From Candidatus Gastranaerophilales bacterium (GTDB lineage Bacteria > Cyanobacteriota > Vampirovibrionia > Gastranaerophilales > Gastranaerophilaceae): a DNA stretch of 64,000 nt. Both the position numbers and the translations under genes were made by a program. Numbering within the stretch: the first letter of the stretch is position 1; the number at the start of each line of letters is the position of its first letter. A model generated the notes under the pieces. That model was not told the DNA's origin, ran no database searches, and saw only the letters and a program-made list of their open reading frames with translations. Positions 3,282 to 10,627 of this stretch are shown here, in pieces. The stretch covers positions 1-64,000 of the forward strand of contig CANQLG010000008.1 of NCBI GenBank assembly GCA_947624645.1, given 5' to 3'.

Positions 3282-3334
3282 ATTGTTATTATACAAAATA
3301 AATTATTGTTTTATAATAATTTTAAGAGGTTTAA

Positions 3335-4411
3335 ATGTCAGTAAAAGTCAGTGTTATTTTAGCGGTTTATAATGTTGAAAAATATATAAGGCAAACTCTT
3401 GACAGCGTTGTAAATCAAACATTAAAAGATATAGAAATAATAGTTGTTGATAATCATTCAACGGATAAAACTCTTGAAATTGTTAATGAATATGCCAAAA
3501 CCGACAAAAGGTTTGTTATCTATAAAAATACCGAAAACTTAAAACAAGGTATAGCCAGAAATTTTGGCGTTCAAATGGCAAGGGGTGAATATATTTTCTT
3601 TATTGACGGTGATGATTATATGGAGTTAACCGCTCTTGAAAAACTGTATAATAAAATAACCGAATCGGATGCCGATATTACTCTTTGTACTTGGAATCAA
3701 TTTGATGATTTAACGGGCAAAATTGATTATAACCATGTATATGCAAAATTAAAACAAATTCCCTCAGAATTTGATAATAAAACTTTCAATTGGCGGGATA
3801 TTAAATATTCCGTTTTTTGGCAGACAAGCGTGCCTTGGGATAAAATGTATAAAAGAGATTTTCTTATAAAAAAAGATGTTAAATTCCCCGGCGGTATTTA
3901 TTTTGAAGATAATGTATTTGTTTATGACGCCCTGTTTAAAGCCGATAAAATGTCGGTATTAAGAGAAGATTTAATTTTTTATCGTTGTAATCGTAAAAAT
4001 GCCGTTACTAATTCAAGAAATCATATTTTCTTTGATTATTTTAAAATTTTCAATCTTATAGGTGATAATCTTAAAAAAATTAATTTATTTGATGAAATGA
4101 AATATTATTATTGGGATTATAAAGTTATAACTTTATATTGGTGGTTTATGAAAGTAAAATTGCCTTATAAAAGAAAATTTTTTAATATGATGAAGTATGA
4201 TTTTAAACACCTTGGAATAAAAGAAGAAGATAAAGAATTTGTACGTAACAGAACATTATTTTTAATAAACAGATTTACCAAACTGCCGTTTTTTATTTAT
4301 TATCCGTTATTTTTCTTTTTTGATAAAATTTTCAGGATTGAAAAGGGTAAAAATAATTATGCGGTAATATTTTTCTCAACATTTGAAAAATGGTATAACT
4401 ATAAAAATTAA
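3335..4411 (+). CDS. Family 2 glycosyltransferase
   Basis: Transfers a sugar from a nucleotide-sugar donor, probably for surface polysaccharide or glycan assembly at the cytoplasmic face. The N-terminal GT-A domain is clear: VSVILAVYNVEKYIRQTLDS, VVDNHSTDKTLEI, ARNFGVQMARGEYI, and the metal-binding FIDGDDYM at about residue 90. The C-terminal ~150 residues are aromatic and basic, with a hydrophobic FFIYYPLFFFFDK patch that may contact the membrane. An AGAGG ribosome-binding site precedes the ATG, and a TATAAT lies at 3312-3317. The 3' end overlaps the convergent SDR gene by 4 bp. Acceptor and donor cannot be told from sequence. Confidence 0.88.
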   Translation: MSVKVSVILAVYNVEKYIRQTLDSVVNQTLKDIEIIVVDNHSTDKTLEIVNEYAKTDKRFVIYKNTENLKQGIARNFGVQMARGEYIFFIDGDDYMELTALEKLYNKITESDADITLCTWNQFDDLTGKIDYNHVYAKLKQIPSEFDNKTFNWRDIKYSVFWQTSVPWDKMYKRDFLIKKDVKFPGGIYFEDNVFVYDALFKADKMSVLREDLIFYRCNRKNAVTNSRNHIFFDYFKIFNLIGDNLKKINLFDEMKYYYWDYKVITLYWWFMKVKLPYKRKFFNMMKYDFKHLGIKEEDKEFVRNRTLFLINRFTKLPFFIYYPLFFFFDKIFRIEKGKNNYAVIFFSTFEKWYNYKN

Positions 4412-5136
4412 AACCCTAAAGAAAGCCCTGCACAGATATTTATTGATTGCCCCGTTATTGATTTTGCTTTATCGGATATTAAAAATTCACACGTTTGAGC
4501 GATTTCTAAAGGAGTTACAAATCTTCTTTGAGGTATTGTTTCTAAAATTTCAGATTTAGAAAAATCTTCATCAAGATTTTTATTATTAATTAAATCCGTA
4601 TCAACCCAGCCGGGGTTGATTATATTAACGGTTATATTATTTTGAGCAAGTTCTAAAGCAAGTGATTTTGTTAAACCGATTAAAGAAGCCTTTGTCATCG
4701 AATATATGGAAGCGTTTGCTTCTCCCATTACACCTGAAATAGAGCCTATATTTATTATTCTGCCCCAATTTTGATTTTTCATGTAAGGAACAACCCCTTT
4801 TATTAATTCATAAGGGGTTAGTGAATTTAAAACCAAAGAATTAATTATATCAATTGATTGCATTTTTTCTATCGGATTATAAAAATAAACCCCTGCATTA
4901 TTGATTAAAATATCAAAATTTATATTAAAAAACTCAAAAAGTCTTTCTGCTCCGTCAGTTAAAGACAAATCAACCGCAAAATAACCTGCAAAATTATTTT
5001 CTTTATATAATTTTTCTAAAATTTTTTCGTTTCTGCCTGTAATATATACGTTAAAAGAATCGGAAAAATATTTCGCCGTTGTAAGTCCTATACCTTTGCT
5101 TGAACCTGTTATTAATATATTTTTTTTATTCATCAT
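4408..5136 (-). CDS. Short-chain dehydrogenase/reductase, FabG-like
   Basis: NAD(P)-dependent oxidoreductase of the classical SDR family, 242 residues. The cofactor motif TGSSKGIG is at residues 10-17, NNAG at 79-82, catalytic serine in GSISG (131-135), and YSMTK gives Tyr145 and Lys149. The C-terminal PGWVDTD and SITGQSINICAG regions resemble 3-oxoacyl-ACP reductase FabG, but the fatty-acid genes are absent nearby, so the substrate is open. Its start overlaps the stop of the upstream RWYD-repeat gene by 11 bp, which indicates translational coupling in a hit-RWYD-SDR operon. Confidence 0.87.
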   Translation of the reverse strand: MMNKKNILITGSSKGIGLTTAKYFSDSFNVYITGRNEKILEKLYKENNFAGYFAVDLSLTDGAERLFEFFNINFDILINNAGVYFYNPIEKMQSIDIINSLVLNSLTPYELIKGVVPYMKNQNWGRIINIGSISGVMGEANASIYSMTKASLIGLTKSLALELAQNNITVNIINPGWVDTDLINNKNLDEDFSKSEILETIPQRRFVTPLEIAQTCEFLISDKAKSITGQSINICAGLSLGF

Positions 5137-5449
5137 CTACATTCGTTATAAAACTTAAAAGTGACATCAAATAAGAATTTATAAGTTCTTTTTTTTCATT
5201 ATCATCCAGAGTTTTTATAAATTCAATACACGTATGAAGATTATAATTTTCATCATACCAGCGGCTGTATTTTTCGGGAGCATTTTTATTCATATTTTGT
5301 ATGGCATTATCAAATCGGTTGTTGTATTTTGACAAAATTATCTGTAAAAAATCCTGAGCAATAAGCTCTATCTGATACTCGTTCAAATTTTCAAGAAGTA
5401 TCATTAAAGATTGTAATTCGGGATAATTGTCATACCAACGATTATACAT
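5126..5449 (-). CDS. Hypothetical protein with two RWYD repeats
   Basis: About 107 residues, acidic and helical, of unknown function. The chain contains two similar segments: RWYDNYPELQSLMILLENLN near the N-terminus and RWYDENYNLHTCIEFIKTLD about 60 residues later, each starting with RWYD and followed by a hydrophobic helix. I chose the ATG at 5449 (MYNRWYD), which lies 2 nt after the hit stop. The longer reading would begin at a TTG inside hit. It is sandwiched between hit and the SDR gene on one transcript. No signal peptide or membrane segment is seen. Confidence 0.7.
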   Translation of the reverse strand: MYNRWYDNYPELQSLMILLENLNEYQIELIAQDFLQIILSKYNNRFDNAIQNMNKNAPEKYSRWYDENYNLHTCIEFIKTLDDNEKKELINSYLMSLLSFITNVDDE

Positions 5450-5451
5450 AA

Positions 5452-5784
5452 TTAACCTGCCGGCCAATTGAATTTTCTGCCTGCCATAACGTGAACATGA
5501 ATATGAAACACTGTTTGACCTGCACTTTCACCCGTATTTATTACTGTTCTATATTCTTTTATTCCTAATTTTTTTGTAATTTTTGGAACAGCTGAAAAAA
5601 TATTACCCAATACTTCACTTGAATCAATTTCATTTAGTGAAGCGTAATGTTTTTTTGGTATTACAAGAAAATGCACGGGAGCTTGTGGATTCAAATCGTT
5701 AAATGCAGCTACATTTTCATCTTCATAAATTAAATCGGTCGGAATTTCTTTATTTGCAATTTTGCAAAAAATACAATCTGACAT
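5452..5784 (-). CDS. HIT family nucleotide hydrolase (HinT-like)
   Basis: Small cytosolic histidine-triad protein, a phosphoramidase acting on purine nucleotide amidates in characterised HinT members. At 110 residues it has the usual length. The triad HIHVHVM gives His94, His96 and His98, and the N-terminal CIFCKI supplies a CxxC pair that binds zinc in some relatives. AAGAGG precedes the ATG. It is the first gene of a three-gene minus-strand group with the RWYD protein and the SDR. The physiological substrate is unknown, as for most HIT proteins. Confidence 0.93.
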   Translation of the reverse strand: MSDCIFCKIANKEIPTDLIYEDENVAAFNDLNPQAPVHFLVIPKKHYASLNEIDSSEVLGNIFSAVPKITKKLGIKEYRTVINTGESAGQTVFHIHVHVMAGRKFNWPAG

Positions 5785-6844: not shown

Positions 6845-8119
6845 TTATACTCTCTGCTGTTCATTTATTGCAAATACTTCAATGGCGTTTGAATTGCAAA
6901 CGGTTTTGCATCTTCCGCAACCTATACATTTTGAAGCGTCAATTTTTGCAGGTTCATTTTCTTCTTTTGTTATTGCGTTTACCGGACATACTTTAATACA
7001 AGCACCGTTTTTACTGCATTTATCGGGATTAATAACCGCCATTGCTATTCGTGTTTCTTGTTTTTTATCAAGAGAAATTTTCTTTATTGCGCCTGATGGA
7101 CATACTTTTGCACATTCTATGCAATCATATTTACAGTATTTTTCGCCTTTTGTATAGTCAATATGTACTGCTCCAAAGTCTTTATCGGCTTTTGTTAAGA
7201 TTTTATTCGGGCATGCATTTACGCAAAGATTACAATTTAAACATTTATTAAACATTCTTTGAGCGTTTTCGGCTCCCGGTGGCAGAATAACATTTTTTAT
7301 CTTTTCCGCAGCTGTTTTTCCTATCTCAATACCGGCTTTTATTGCTCCCGCCAAAACAATAAGCGCTGCGCCGAATGTAATTAATTCACGCCTTTTGGGG
7401 TTGAATATTACTTCTTCTTTCGGTTTTATTCCGTATTTTATTGCATCTTTAGGACATAATCCTTTACATTTTAAGCATTTAACACATGTTTCATTGTCTA
7501 TATATTGTTCACCAGAGTCGATACAGCCTGAGGGGCAGTTTCTTTCACACATCCCGCATGATAAACATTCATTTTTATCTATGTACATTTTGAATAATGA
7601 AAGTTTTGATAACAGTCCCAATAAACAGCCTATGGGGCAAATGTTCGTGCAAAAGTACCTGTTTTTGAACAGGGTTAATACTATTATTGCGATAAGCGCA
7701 ATTATTCCTATTATTGATAGAGTAAATGCGGAGCCAAAATATGTATAAGGTTCTAAATATCTTATTAATAATGCGCTTCCGCCTATCATAACTCCTAAAG
7801 TTATTGCTGTTATGAAATATTTAACAGGCAGATTTTTTCTCGGTTCTTCGTTTCCCTCACCTCTAAAAAGTGCGGTAATTTCTTGGATTATACCTAAAGG
7901 GCATAACAGTGAACAATAAAATCTGCCGAATAATAAAGTTAATAAAAGTATTATTGCAAGTGAAGCTATGCTTATAACCGTAAAATCAATTATTACTCTT
8001 TGAATTAAAGGTGCAGTTTGAATATCAAATAACGGAAGCGGGTAGAATATTCCCGTTATTCCTAAAATTGCCGTTATAAATATTAAAATTGCAATTCCAA
8101 AACGTATTTTATATAACAT
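6845..8119 (-). CDS. NapH-NapG-like fused membrane polyferredoxin
   Basis: A 424-residue fusion. Residues 1-165 form a NapH-like membrane domain with several hydrophobic segments and two CX3CP motifs (Cys69/73 and Cys157/161). Two [4Fe-4S] motifs follow (Cys185/188/191/195 and 212/215/218/222). Then come Arg243-Arg244 in RRELITFGAA with a hydrophobic stretch, like a Tat signal in mid-chain, and a NapG-like part. That part has the LPPGA motif and four further Cys clusters (near 293-303, 329-340, 368-378 and 398-408). In NapGH systems such proteins pass electrons from quinol to periplasmic partners. The start overlaps the upstream reductase stop by 1 bp. No nitrate reductase is present, so the partners are probably the neighbouring reductases (inference). 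Confidence 0.85.
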   Translation of the reverse strand: MLYKIRFGIAILIFITAILGITGIFYPLPLFDIQTAPLIQRVIIDFTVISIASLAIILLLTLLFGRFYCSLLCPLGIIQEITALFRGEGNEEPRKNLPVKYFITAITLGVMIGGSALLIRYLEPYTYFGSAFTLSIIGIIALIAIIVLTLFKNRYFCTNICPIGCLLGLLSKLSLFKMYIDKNECLSCGMCERNCPSGCIDSGEQYIDNETCVKCLKCKGLCPKDAIKYGIKPKEEVIFNPKRRELITFGAALIVLAGAIKAGIEIGKTAAEKIKNVILPPGAENAQRMFNKCLNCNLCVNACPNKILTKADKDFGAVHIDYTKGEKYCKYDCIECAKVCPSGAIKKISLDKKQETRIAMAVINPDKCSKNGACIKVCPVNAITKEENEPAKIDASKCIGCGRCKTVCNSNAIEVFAINEQQRV

Positions 8120-9351
8120 TATGCACTCGCCTTTGCTTTTTCGTATTCTTTTTGAACCTCTGCCAATAAATCAGGTATAGGAAGGTTTTGCGGACAGTTT
8201 TTATTACATAATCCGCATTTAATGCATTTATCAGCTTTTTCATTTTCACTTAAGGTTTCATAGTATATTTTTAAGTGAAACGCACTGTTTGTAACTTTAT
8301 ACTGGTTATAAAGAGCAAATATGGCGGGAATATTTATTCCTTTAGGGCAGACCTCCATGCAGTATTTGCAAGCAGTACAGTTTATTTCACCTTGAGATTG
8401 AATAATTTTAGCCATCTCATCGGCAACTTTTATTTCTTCTTCACTCATAGGAGTAAAGTTTTCAAAAGTAGCTATATTTTCTTTCATTTGTTTTAAATTG
8501 CTCATGCCTGATAAAACGGTTACAACATTATTTTGGCTTGCGGCCCATCTTAAACCGAATTCGGCAGGAGTTGCATTCGGATAATTTTCTTTTAATTTTG
8601 CCATAGCCTTTTCGCTTAAATTTACAAGTCCTCCGCCTCTTAAAGGCTCCATTACCGTAACGGGAATACCTAAAGCTTGTACTATATTGTACTGCTCATG
8701 TGCTTTAACTACATCCCAATCCAAATAATTTACCTGCAATTGAGCAAAATCCCATTTGTAATCTTTTACTACCTCTTTTAAAATCTCGGGAGTGCCGTGA
8801 AAAGAGAATCCAAAATATTTAATTAAACCTTCTTCTTTTAATTTATTAAGTTCTTCAACCATTTTAACATTTCTGTACTGCTCAAAAGTATTTAAATTAA
8901 TGTTATGGCACATATAAAAGTCAAAATAATCAACTTGGCATTTTTTTCTTTGTTCGTCAAAAATTTTTCTTACGTCACTTTGTGAATTCATTTTATAAAT
9001 AGGGCTTTTATCCGCTAAAATAAATGAGCTTCTGTCATATTTTTTTAATACTTTGCCGATAGCAGTTTCGGAATTTCCGTCAACGTACATATATGCGGTA
9101 TCAAAATAATTAGCACCGTGGGCAAAAGCGTATTCAGTCATCTTTTCAAGCTCAACCATATCGATTTTATTGCCGTCCATAGGAAGGCGCATGCAGCCAA
9201 AACCAAGCAAAGGTACTTCAATATCTTTATATTTTCTTTTTATAACCTGACCTTCAGATTTAATTAATTTTTCTTTACCGTAGCCTGCTGTCATTAAAGC
9301 AGTACCGCCAAGTGCAAAAATTGAACTTTTAATAAAATCACGACGTTTCAT
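8119..9351 (-). CDS. Tat-exported aldo/keto reductase with C-terminal 2[4Fe-4S] domain (copy 1)
   Basis: A 410-residue oxidoreductase of the COG1453 type. It begins with a twin-arginine signal (MKRRDFIKSS, then a hydrophobic stretch to about residue 23). The aldo/keto reductase barrel (about 40-300) keeps the tetrad Asp84, Tyr89, Lys115 and His149, and a SGMSNLKQMKENI segment typical of the cofactor-phosphate region. The C-terminus has two CX2CX2CX3C motifs (Cys325/328/331/335 and 376/379/382/386). AAGGAG precedes the ATG. It is colinear with the second copy and lies directly upstream of the polyferredoxin and tatAC. Substrate is unknown; a small carbonyl compound is likely from the family. 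Confidence 0.9.
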   Translation of the reverse strand: MKRRDFIKSSIFALGGTALMTAGYGKEKLIKSEGQVIKRKYKDIEVPLLGFGCMRLPMDGNKIDMVELEKMTEYAFAHGANYFDTAYMYVDGNSETAIGKVLKKYDRSSFILADKSPIYKMNSQSDVRKIFDEQRKKCQVDYFDFYMCHNINLNTFEQYRNVKMVEELNKLKEEGLIKYFGFSFHGTPEILKEVVKDYKWDFAQLQVNYLDWDVVKAHEQYNIVQALGIPVTVMEPLRGGGLVNLSEKAMAKLKENYPNATPAEFGLRWAASQNNVVTVLSGMSNLKQMKENIATFENFTPMSEEEIKVADEMAKIIQSQGEINCTACKYCMEVCPKGINIPAIFALYNQYKVTNSAFHLKIYYETLSENEKADKCIKCGLCNKNCPQNLPIPDLLAEVQKEYEKAKASA

Positions 9352-9360
9352 AGTTTCTCC

Positions 9361-10599
9361 TTATTTTATTTTTCCTGATTTTATATCCGAATATAGTGTA
9401 TGAATTTTAGATAATAATTCGGGAATATCTAAATTTTGCGGACAAGTTTTGCTGCAAAGACCGCATTTAATACATTTATCGCCTCTTTCATTTTCATCTA
9501 ACATATTATAACGACCCAAAAAGGCAATATATCTTTTTGGAGGTATAAATTCATTATATAATGATAAGATTACCGGAATATTTATACCTTTAGGGCAGAC
9601 CTCCATGCAGTATTTACAAGCTGTACAGTTTATTTCACTTTCTTCTTTAATTATTGAATTTATTTGTTTTGCTACTTTTTCTTCTTCAGCAGTTATTTTT
9701 TGAAAATTTACAAAGGTATCTATATTTTCTTTTATTTGTTGTAAATTGCTCATGCCGGATAGTACTGTCATAACATTTTCTTTTGAAGCAACCCACCTGA
9801 GTGCAAACTCGGCAGGTGTTGTATCGGGATAGTGTTCTTTTAATTTATTGATAGCTTTATCACTTAATCTGACTAAATTTCCTCCTTTGAGTGGTTCCAT
9901 AACAACAGTCGGAATACCGGCATTTTTTAATATATCATACTGCTGATGTGCTTCTGCTACATCCCAATCAAAGTAATTCATTTGAAGATAGCAGAAATCC
10001 CAGGGATGTTCATTTACAAGTTCTTTTAGCATTTTTGTACTTCCGTGGAATGAAAATCCCGCATATTTTATTTTTTCTTCTTTTTTAAATTCCATTAATT
10101 GATTAAACATTTCATATTTTCTATAATTTTCTATTGTATTTGGTCTGAGAGAGTGAATCATATAAAAGTCGAAATAGCCGACTTTACACTTTCTTAGCTG
10201 TTCTTCAAAGACTCTTCGAACATCTTCTTTTGACCTCATCATTTGGGGGGGGGTCTTATCAGCTAACAAAAAGTCTTTTCGGTGATAATTCTTTAAAACA
10301 TCACCTATCGCATTTTCGGATTTACCGTTTACATACATATATGCCGTATCAAAATAGTTAACACCATGGGTTATGGCATAATCAACCATTTTTTCAAGCT
10401 CAATCATATCAACGTTTTTACCGTCCATAGGAAGTCTTAAACATCCAAGCCCTAGCAAAGGCACCGTGATATTTTTGAATTTTCTTCTCGCAACTTGCTC
10501 TTTTGCTTTATATAATCTTTTTGAAGAACAACCTGTTGTCATTAAAGCAGTTCCGCCAAGTGCGAAAATTGAACTTTTAATAAACTCACGACGTTTCAT
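9361..10599 (-). CDS. Tat-exported aldo/keto reductase with C-terminal 2[4Fe-4S] domain (copy 2)
   Basis: Paralogue of the next gene, 412 residues from the ATG at 10599. That start has GGGAG 7 nt upstream and makes the tetrad fall at the same positions as copy 1 (Asp84, Tyr89, Lys115, His149), as do the Fe-S cysteines (325 to 335 and 376 to 386). A longer start at 10611 is possible. The signal is MKRREFIKSS with a hydrophobic stretch ending TTGCSS; Cys24 replaces Tyr24 of copy 1 and could be a lipidation site, though the lipobox is imperfect. A run of nine C (minus strand, 10253-10245) inside codons 116-119 is striking in so AT-rich a gene. It is the first gene of the operon. Confidence 0.9.
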   Translation of the reverse strand: MKRREFIKSSIFALGGTALMTTGCSSKRLYKAKEQVARRKFKNITVPLLGLGCLRLPMDGKNVDMIELEKMVDYAITHGVNYFDTAYMYVNGKSENAIGDVLKNYHRKDFLLADKTPPQMMRSKEDVRRVFEEQLRKCKVGYFDFYMIHSLRPNTIENYRKYEMFNQLMEFKKEEKIKYAGFSFHGSTKMLKELVNEHPWDFCYLQMNYFDWDVAEAHQQYDILKNAGIPTVVMEPLKGGNLVRLSDKAINKLKEHYPDTTPAEFALRWVASKENVMTVLSGMSNLQQIKENIDTFVNFQKITAEEEKVAKQINSIIKEESEINCTACKYCMEVCPKGINIPVILSLYNEFIPPKRYIAFLGRYNMLDENERGDKCIKCGLCSKTCPQNLDIPELLSKIHTLYSDIKSGKIK

Positions 10600-10627
10600 A
10601 TCATCTCCCATTTATGCTTATAACTAT

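Follow-up and report, generated by a model that had tools for sequence, protein, structure and literature searches.

Polyferredoxins that join NapH and NapG in a single chain were described by Tooke et al. (2017; PMC5449189) who presented them as a class needing both the Sec and the Tat pathways. Their protein from the delta proteobacterium MLMS-1 (Q1NSB0) has five spans, a twin arginine directly before span 5 (residues 338 to 359), and seven clusters, three cytoplasmic and four outside. Using reporter fusions and RR-to-KK changes, these authors found that reporters were exported in a Tat-dependent manner and that the rest of the protein integrates in the membrane independently of Tat. The article gives predicted insertion energies (dG) of -2.38 for TM1 and +0.297 for TM5 of the MLMS-1 protein, and class ranges of -0.975 to -3.560 for TM1 and +0.297 to +1.715 for the last span. 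The actinobacterial Rieske protein (Sco2149 type) is similar in that Sec-inserted spans are followed by a twin arginine and a Tat-dependent last span, although it belongs to another protein family and has one Rieske cluster and three spans. The first-pass annotation had likened the present protein to the Rieske case; the analogy is right, although the MLMS-1 protein is the closer precedent.

We analyzed a stretch of 64,000 nucleotides (the window) of a gut bacterium of the Gastranaerophilales, which encodes a NapH-NapG fusion polyferredoxin (PFD) (Table 1). Since the class had already been described, the need for both Sec and Tat is not a new observation; this kind of protein is known in other bacteria, and its setting with exported Fe-S aldo/keto reductases (AKRs) and tatAC is the less expected part.

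Table 1. Features of the polyferredoxin locus, with positions in the window; dG values are from a re-implementation of the published Hessa scale, as opposed to the dgpred server
Feature	Position	Strand	Basis
NapH-NapG fusion polyferredoxin (PFD), 424 aa, ATG start	6845..8119	-	ORF, NCBIfam matches, homologues
PFD NapH-like part, residues 1-234	7418..8119	-	NF007013 match 38-234; E. coli NapH alignment
PFD first CX3CP motif, residues 69-74 (Cys69/73)	7898..7915	-	cysteines invariant, 72 sequences
PFD second CX3CP motif, residues 157-162 (Cys157/161)	7634..7651	-	cysteines invariant, 72 sequences
PFD two [4Fe-4S] motifs, residues 185-222, predicted cytoplasmic	7454..7567	-	
PFD twin arginine R243-R244	7388..7393	-	conserved 71/72 and 72/72
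PFD NapG-like part, residues 275-424, four cysteine motifs (one without Cys at 371)	6848..7297	-	NF007012 match; E. coli NapG alignment
PFD predicted TM1, residues 2-24, dG -2.65	8048..8116	-	helix 2-21 in AlphaFold2 model
PFD predicted TM2, residues 46-68, dG -3.34	7916..7984	-	dG scale
PFD predicted TM3, residues 100-122, dG -1.65	7754..7822	-	dG scale
PFD predicted TM4, residues 131-151, dG -3.53	7667..7729	-	dG scale
PFD predicted TM5 / internal Tat signal anchor, residues 243-264, dG +0.33	7328..7393	-	continuous helix 243-272 in model
AKR1, aldo/keto reductase, N-terminal MKRRDF Tat signal, C-terminal 2x4 Cys motifs	8119..9351	-	
AKR2, second Tat-signal Fe-S aldo/keto reductase, lipobox-like TTGC, 60% identical to AKR1	9361..10611	-	
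tatA, 72 aa	6604..6822	-	TIGR01411 54.1 bits, cut-off 53.9
tatC, 244 aa	5870..6604	-	PF00902 E 5e-55; TIGR00945 over cut-off

Domain structure of the fusion protein

In NCBIfam, the NapH profile NF007013 matched residues 38 to 234 of PFD (E 1.6e-30) and the NapG profile NF007012 residues 239 to 416 (E 5.1e-15), with scores far under the respective equivalog cut-offs (106.2 versus 234 bits and 55.3 versus 269 bits). The NF007012 alignment begins at profile position 7 of 254, that is, inside the NapG signal region. This accords with alignments to a profile of 72 relatives, in which E. coli NapH aligned with the first part of PFD and the aligned part of E. coli NapG began at the twin arginine of that protein, took in RPPGA and CAKVCPSGA, and reached as far as the last cluster. 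Thus, both halves resemble the E. coli proteins, the Tat signal of NapG included, although they form one chain here and two there; no NapA was seen within the window. The NapH-like first part with two CX3CP and two [4Fe-4S] motifs, and the arginine pair with a hydrophobic stretch (residues 243 to 264) followed by LPPGA (residues 279 to 283), had both been noted before the profile searches and were borne out.

Four-cysteine motifs start at residues 185, 212, 293, 329, 368, and 398. The earlier count of four more clusters of the NapG type held as to their number and place, but the motif at residue 368 (residues 368 to 378; positions 6986 to 7018 of the window) is one cysteine short: it reads C-x5-C-x3-C, with Asn371 in place of the second cysteine. 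Cysteine occupies this position in 59 of the 72 aligned sequences, and asparagine in seven others besides PFD. Compared with the MLMS-1 protein as published (PMC5449189), PFD has span 5 much nearer to the N terminus (residues 243 to 264), two instead of three cytoplasmic clusters by its [4Fe-4S] motifs, and one outside motif lacking a cysteine.

Sequence searches of the PDB with PFD returned ferredoxins as the only matches, and fold searches matched only ferredoxin domains of unrelated enzymes, so these searches are uninformative on the membrane part. An assembly artefact or a chance fusion of NapH and NapG was considered and rejected, since the intact fusion recurs in dozens of independent genomes (31 of 58 genomes and 80 loci, and also in Bacteroidota).

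Twin-arginine segment and predicted targeting

For conservation and insertion energies we used an alignment of 72 PFD sequences containing relatives at 45 to 87% identity. Arg-244 was present in every sequence and Arg-243 in all except one, which has lysine, while the flanking positions were variable. The median dG was +0.59 for TM5 and ranged from -0.95 to -3.38 for TM1 to TM4; the TM5 value was above zero in 83% of the sequences and at or below zero in 12 of the 72. The residues after TM5 (262 to 279) carried a positive net charge in 56 of the sequences and a net charge of zero in the other 16. In the AlphaFold2 model (pLDDT 89.7, pTM 0.84), a single helix (residues 243 to 272) starts straight after the twin arginine and lies between ordered ferredoxin domains, including the C-terminal one.

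PFD therefore has the features of the published class, namely the fusion itself, a twin arginine before the last span, a positive charge after that span, and a TM5 of +0.33 against a TM1 of -2.65, values from our re-implemented scale that are set here beside the +0.297 of TM5 in the MLMS-1 protein (PMC5449189). We tested whether the segment might be just a membrane span of the usual kind with no resemblance to NapG, and this was not the case. The proposal that one chain needs Sec for its first part and Tat for its last is supported at the level of sequence by the conserved twin arginine, the homology to the NapG signal and the marginal span 5, and the same evidence supports the assignment of PFD, by sequence, to the dual-targeted polyferredoxins of Tooke et al.

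Operon organization and recurrence

The genes for AKR2, AKR1, PFD, TatA, and TatC all have the same orientation and are separated by no more than 22 nt, and the stop codon overlaps the next start codon as TAATG both between AKR1 and PFD and between tatA and tatC. Judged by this arrangement, AKR, PFD, tatA, and tatC are one operon. The presence of tatAC beside the fusion, already pointed out in the first-pass annotation, was confirmed by NCBIfam and Pfam matches. Such an operon is not described for the MLMS-1 protein in the parts of PMC5449189 available to us.

Both AKRs contain a PF00248 domain with the D/Y/K/H tetrad, and the N-terminal twin arginine, the tetrad, and eight cysteines were invariant among 57 aligned AKRs. 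AKRs normally depend on NAD(P)H, a cofactor that one would not expect to find beyond the membrane, and this leaves the reaction of an exported AKR unaccounted for. In the literature searched, we found no description of an exported Fe-S aldo/keto reductase, nor of an AKR, PFD, and tatAC module. Fe-S AKRs of Subdoligranulum and Monoglobus matched only from residue 39 to 49 onward, and thus the signal region lies outside the match.

Across 80 loci (48 from Gastranaerophilales, 17 from Alphaproteobacteria, 5 from Endomicrobia, and 10 others), tatA was located within 300 nt downstream of the PFD gene in 75 and tatC within 1 kb downstream in 73. An AKR with an N-terminal twin arginine lay directly upstream in 57 loci; the 23 loci without an AKR there include many alphaproteobacterial ones. 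We compared 58 genomes, the present one included along with its relatives. PFD and the AKR were jointly present in 31, jointly missing in 27, and never found one without the other; TatC accompanied them in each of the 31 and occurred in 5 further genomes. On a MutS tree, PFD changed state at least seven times. TatC shifted in the same way in 5 to 6 of 7 independent pairs and never in the opposite way (sign test, median p 0.03), for which physical linkage is part of the explanation. LarC likewise shifted with PFD and never opposite to it (median p 0.03), although this weakened to p 0.125 when the least complete genomes were left out; because this genome has LarC on a separate contig, its association with PFD is more than linkage alone. 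Genome G023 has tatA, tatC, LarB, and LarC in a row (locus L114, positions 3310 to 5760), yet lacks PFD and the AKR. In the distant lineage of Bacteroides and Parabacteroides, fusions with 27 to 29% identity (WP_237923812 and WP_094582378) also have their own mid-protein twin arginine followed by a hydrophobic stretch and adjoin AKRs with an N-terminal twin arginine and Fe-S motifs; they differ in that the AKR lies downstream and no tatAC occurs in the stretch examined.

Besides tatAC, genes for nickel-pincer nucleotide synthesis recurred near PFD (LarB in 48, LarC in 46, and LarE in 41 of the 80 loci); in roughly half of the loci they come after tatC (e.g., L121, 6467 to 9564), and among the relatives LarC occurs together with tatC. 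All three are also present in this genome, where such genes lie at L208 on contig C16 (3651 to 5071). LarC in this genome (L208, 4334 to 5071) and in 36 Gastranaerophilales loci consists of the LarC1 half alone, about 245 aa, and no LarC2 half was seen in a PF01969 search; alphaproteobacterial copies are full length, 402 to 414 aa. We found no convincing match to the LarA domain (PF09861) in this genome or its relatives, and about 15% of surveyed genomes have the nickel-pincer pathway without LarA (PMC11796402). A cytoplasmic DUF362 protein is encoded near a LarE gene in this genome (L140 on contig C38, 1 to 398 and 1363 to 2280) and in two relatives. As DUF362 belongs to the same Pfam clan as LarA (PMC11770544), it may be a nickel-pincer client; a universal role of this kind was dropped because many PFD genomes with LarC have no DUF362. 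DUF362 proteins with Tat signals occur beside the fusion in Alphaproteobacteria and Parabacteroides distasonis (L101, 5018 to 5965; L212, 5044 to 5976).

A flavodoxin lies beside the module in 36 loci, almost always with a hydrophobic N-terminal segment that would be an anchor or a signal (e.g., L052, 4174 to 4746). Flavodoxins are normally cytoplasmic. In this genome, a flavodoxin with a hydrophobic N terminus (L122 on contig C15, 2958 to 3533) adjoins an FMN-reductase-like protein (2335 to 2976) whose N-terminal MDRRSFIK signal makes it a likely further Tat substrate outside the operon. A TIGR01409 scan of the genome for other Tat substrates gave one match and missed both AKRs, and thus cannot be used for counting them. 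Beside another polyferredoxin locus, a radical SAM protein has what looks like a Tat lipoprotein signal at its N terminus (MNRRDFIKSCACCFSMLMLTAC; L084, 4240 to 5154). The Lar genes and flavodoxins suggest a wider outside redox system, without proving one.

Proposed export and electron transfer

We consider it probable that PFD is a dual Sec/Tat-targeted polyferredoxin of the published class, serving the Tat-exported Fe-S AKRs by electron transfer through the cytoplasmic membrane. Spans 1 to 4 would be inserted by Sec, so that the CX3CP motifs and two [4Fe-4S] clusters end up on the cytoplasmic face. Span 5 would be too polar for stable Sec insertion, and the C-terminal domain would acquire its clusters in the cytoplasm; TatAC would then export it by means of the twin arginine and span 5, which would remain as an anchor. 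Once outside, its clusters would pass electrons to, or take them up from, the Fe-S domain of the AKRs encoded just upstream. Going by the sequences, the C-terminal half is very probably carried outside in folded form by the exporter encoded alongside; the final topology and cluster content would follow the scheme above.

The marginal hydrophobicity of span 5, with a predicted insertion energy unfavorable on its own, would also suit a re-entrant or peripheral helix and a polyferredoxin facing the cytoplasm throughout. We regard this as very improbable, because the twin arginine is essentially invariant, the NapG homology runs through the Tat signal, and the gene is persistently linked to tatAC and Tat-signal AKRs. 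Indeed, NapH-only paralogues of about 230 aa stop short of the twin-arginine segment (L115, 3981 to 4682; L118, 4009 to 4716), genome G020, which has no tatC, carries only this short form, and the MLMS-1 protein provides a direct experimental precedent (PMC5449189).

A classical quinol dehydrogenase, with the NapH part oxidizing menaquinol and the NapG part feeding a reductase on the outside in the way that NapGH supplies NapA, accords with homology over the whole chain and with the experimentally studied NapGH complexes, which are such enzymes (cited in PMC5449189). We nevertheless judge it unlikely. Among the genomes searched, MqnA/D was found in 14 without PFD and in none of the 31 with it, and MenD never reached the cut-off and was not found in any PFD genome; the absence of quinones is thus read from two marker families, and a UbiA-family protein was present with a weak score. 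Gut relatives are described as fermenters without quinones in which ferredoxin is important to redox metabolism, although vitamin K synthesis is allowed for one gut type (PMC3787301). Given that the searches revealed no menaquinone pathway, we consider it unlikely that quinol donates the electrons; ferredoxin or another soluble carrier in reduced form is the more likely cytoplasmic partner. With the same topology, electrons might flow inward, the exported AKRs oxidizing an outside alcohol or sugar and PFD returning electrons to a cytoplasmic ferredoxin or hydrogenase. The sequence gives no indication of direction and AKR reactions are generally reversible, but on general grounds AKRs usually work physiologically as carbonyl reductases and fermenters need electron sinks; we therefore hold inward flow to be a minority prospect, somewhat ahead of the quinol route. 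Most likely, PFD is the route by which electrons cross the membrane between the cytoplasm and the exported AKRs, whichever way they run; outward flow, the AKRs as partners and ferredoxin as donor are what we infer.

More tentatively, and with somewhat less than even confidence, PFD may be part of a quinone- and cytochrome-free extracytoplasmic ferredoxin/flavodoxin chain. It would lead from ferredoxin through PFD to Tat-exported Fe-S AKRs, membrane-anchored flavodoxins, and FMN reductases outside, with tatAC largely dedicated to it, and in some lineages would be connected with the synthesis of the nickel-pincer nucleotide and with an exported enzyme of the LarA clan (DUF362). The link to LarB, LarC, and LarE in genomes where LarA was not found has a bearing on the question of which proteins other than LarA depend on the nickel-pincer cofactor (PMC11796402). 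Besides, AKR, PFD, TatA, and TatC are a compact gene set for testing the hand-over from Sec to Tat. If our reading is true, supposed pure fermenters without a respiratory chain would own a quinone-free, low-potential electron route to exported reductases, and the Tat system of these bacteria would exist largely for it.
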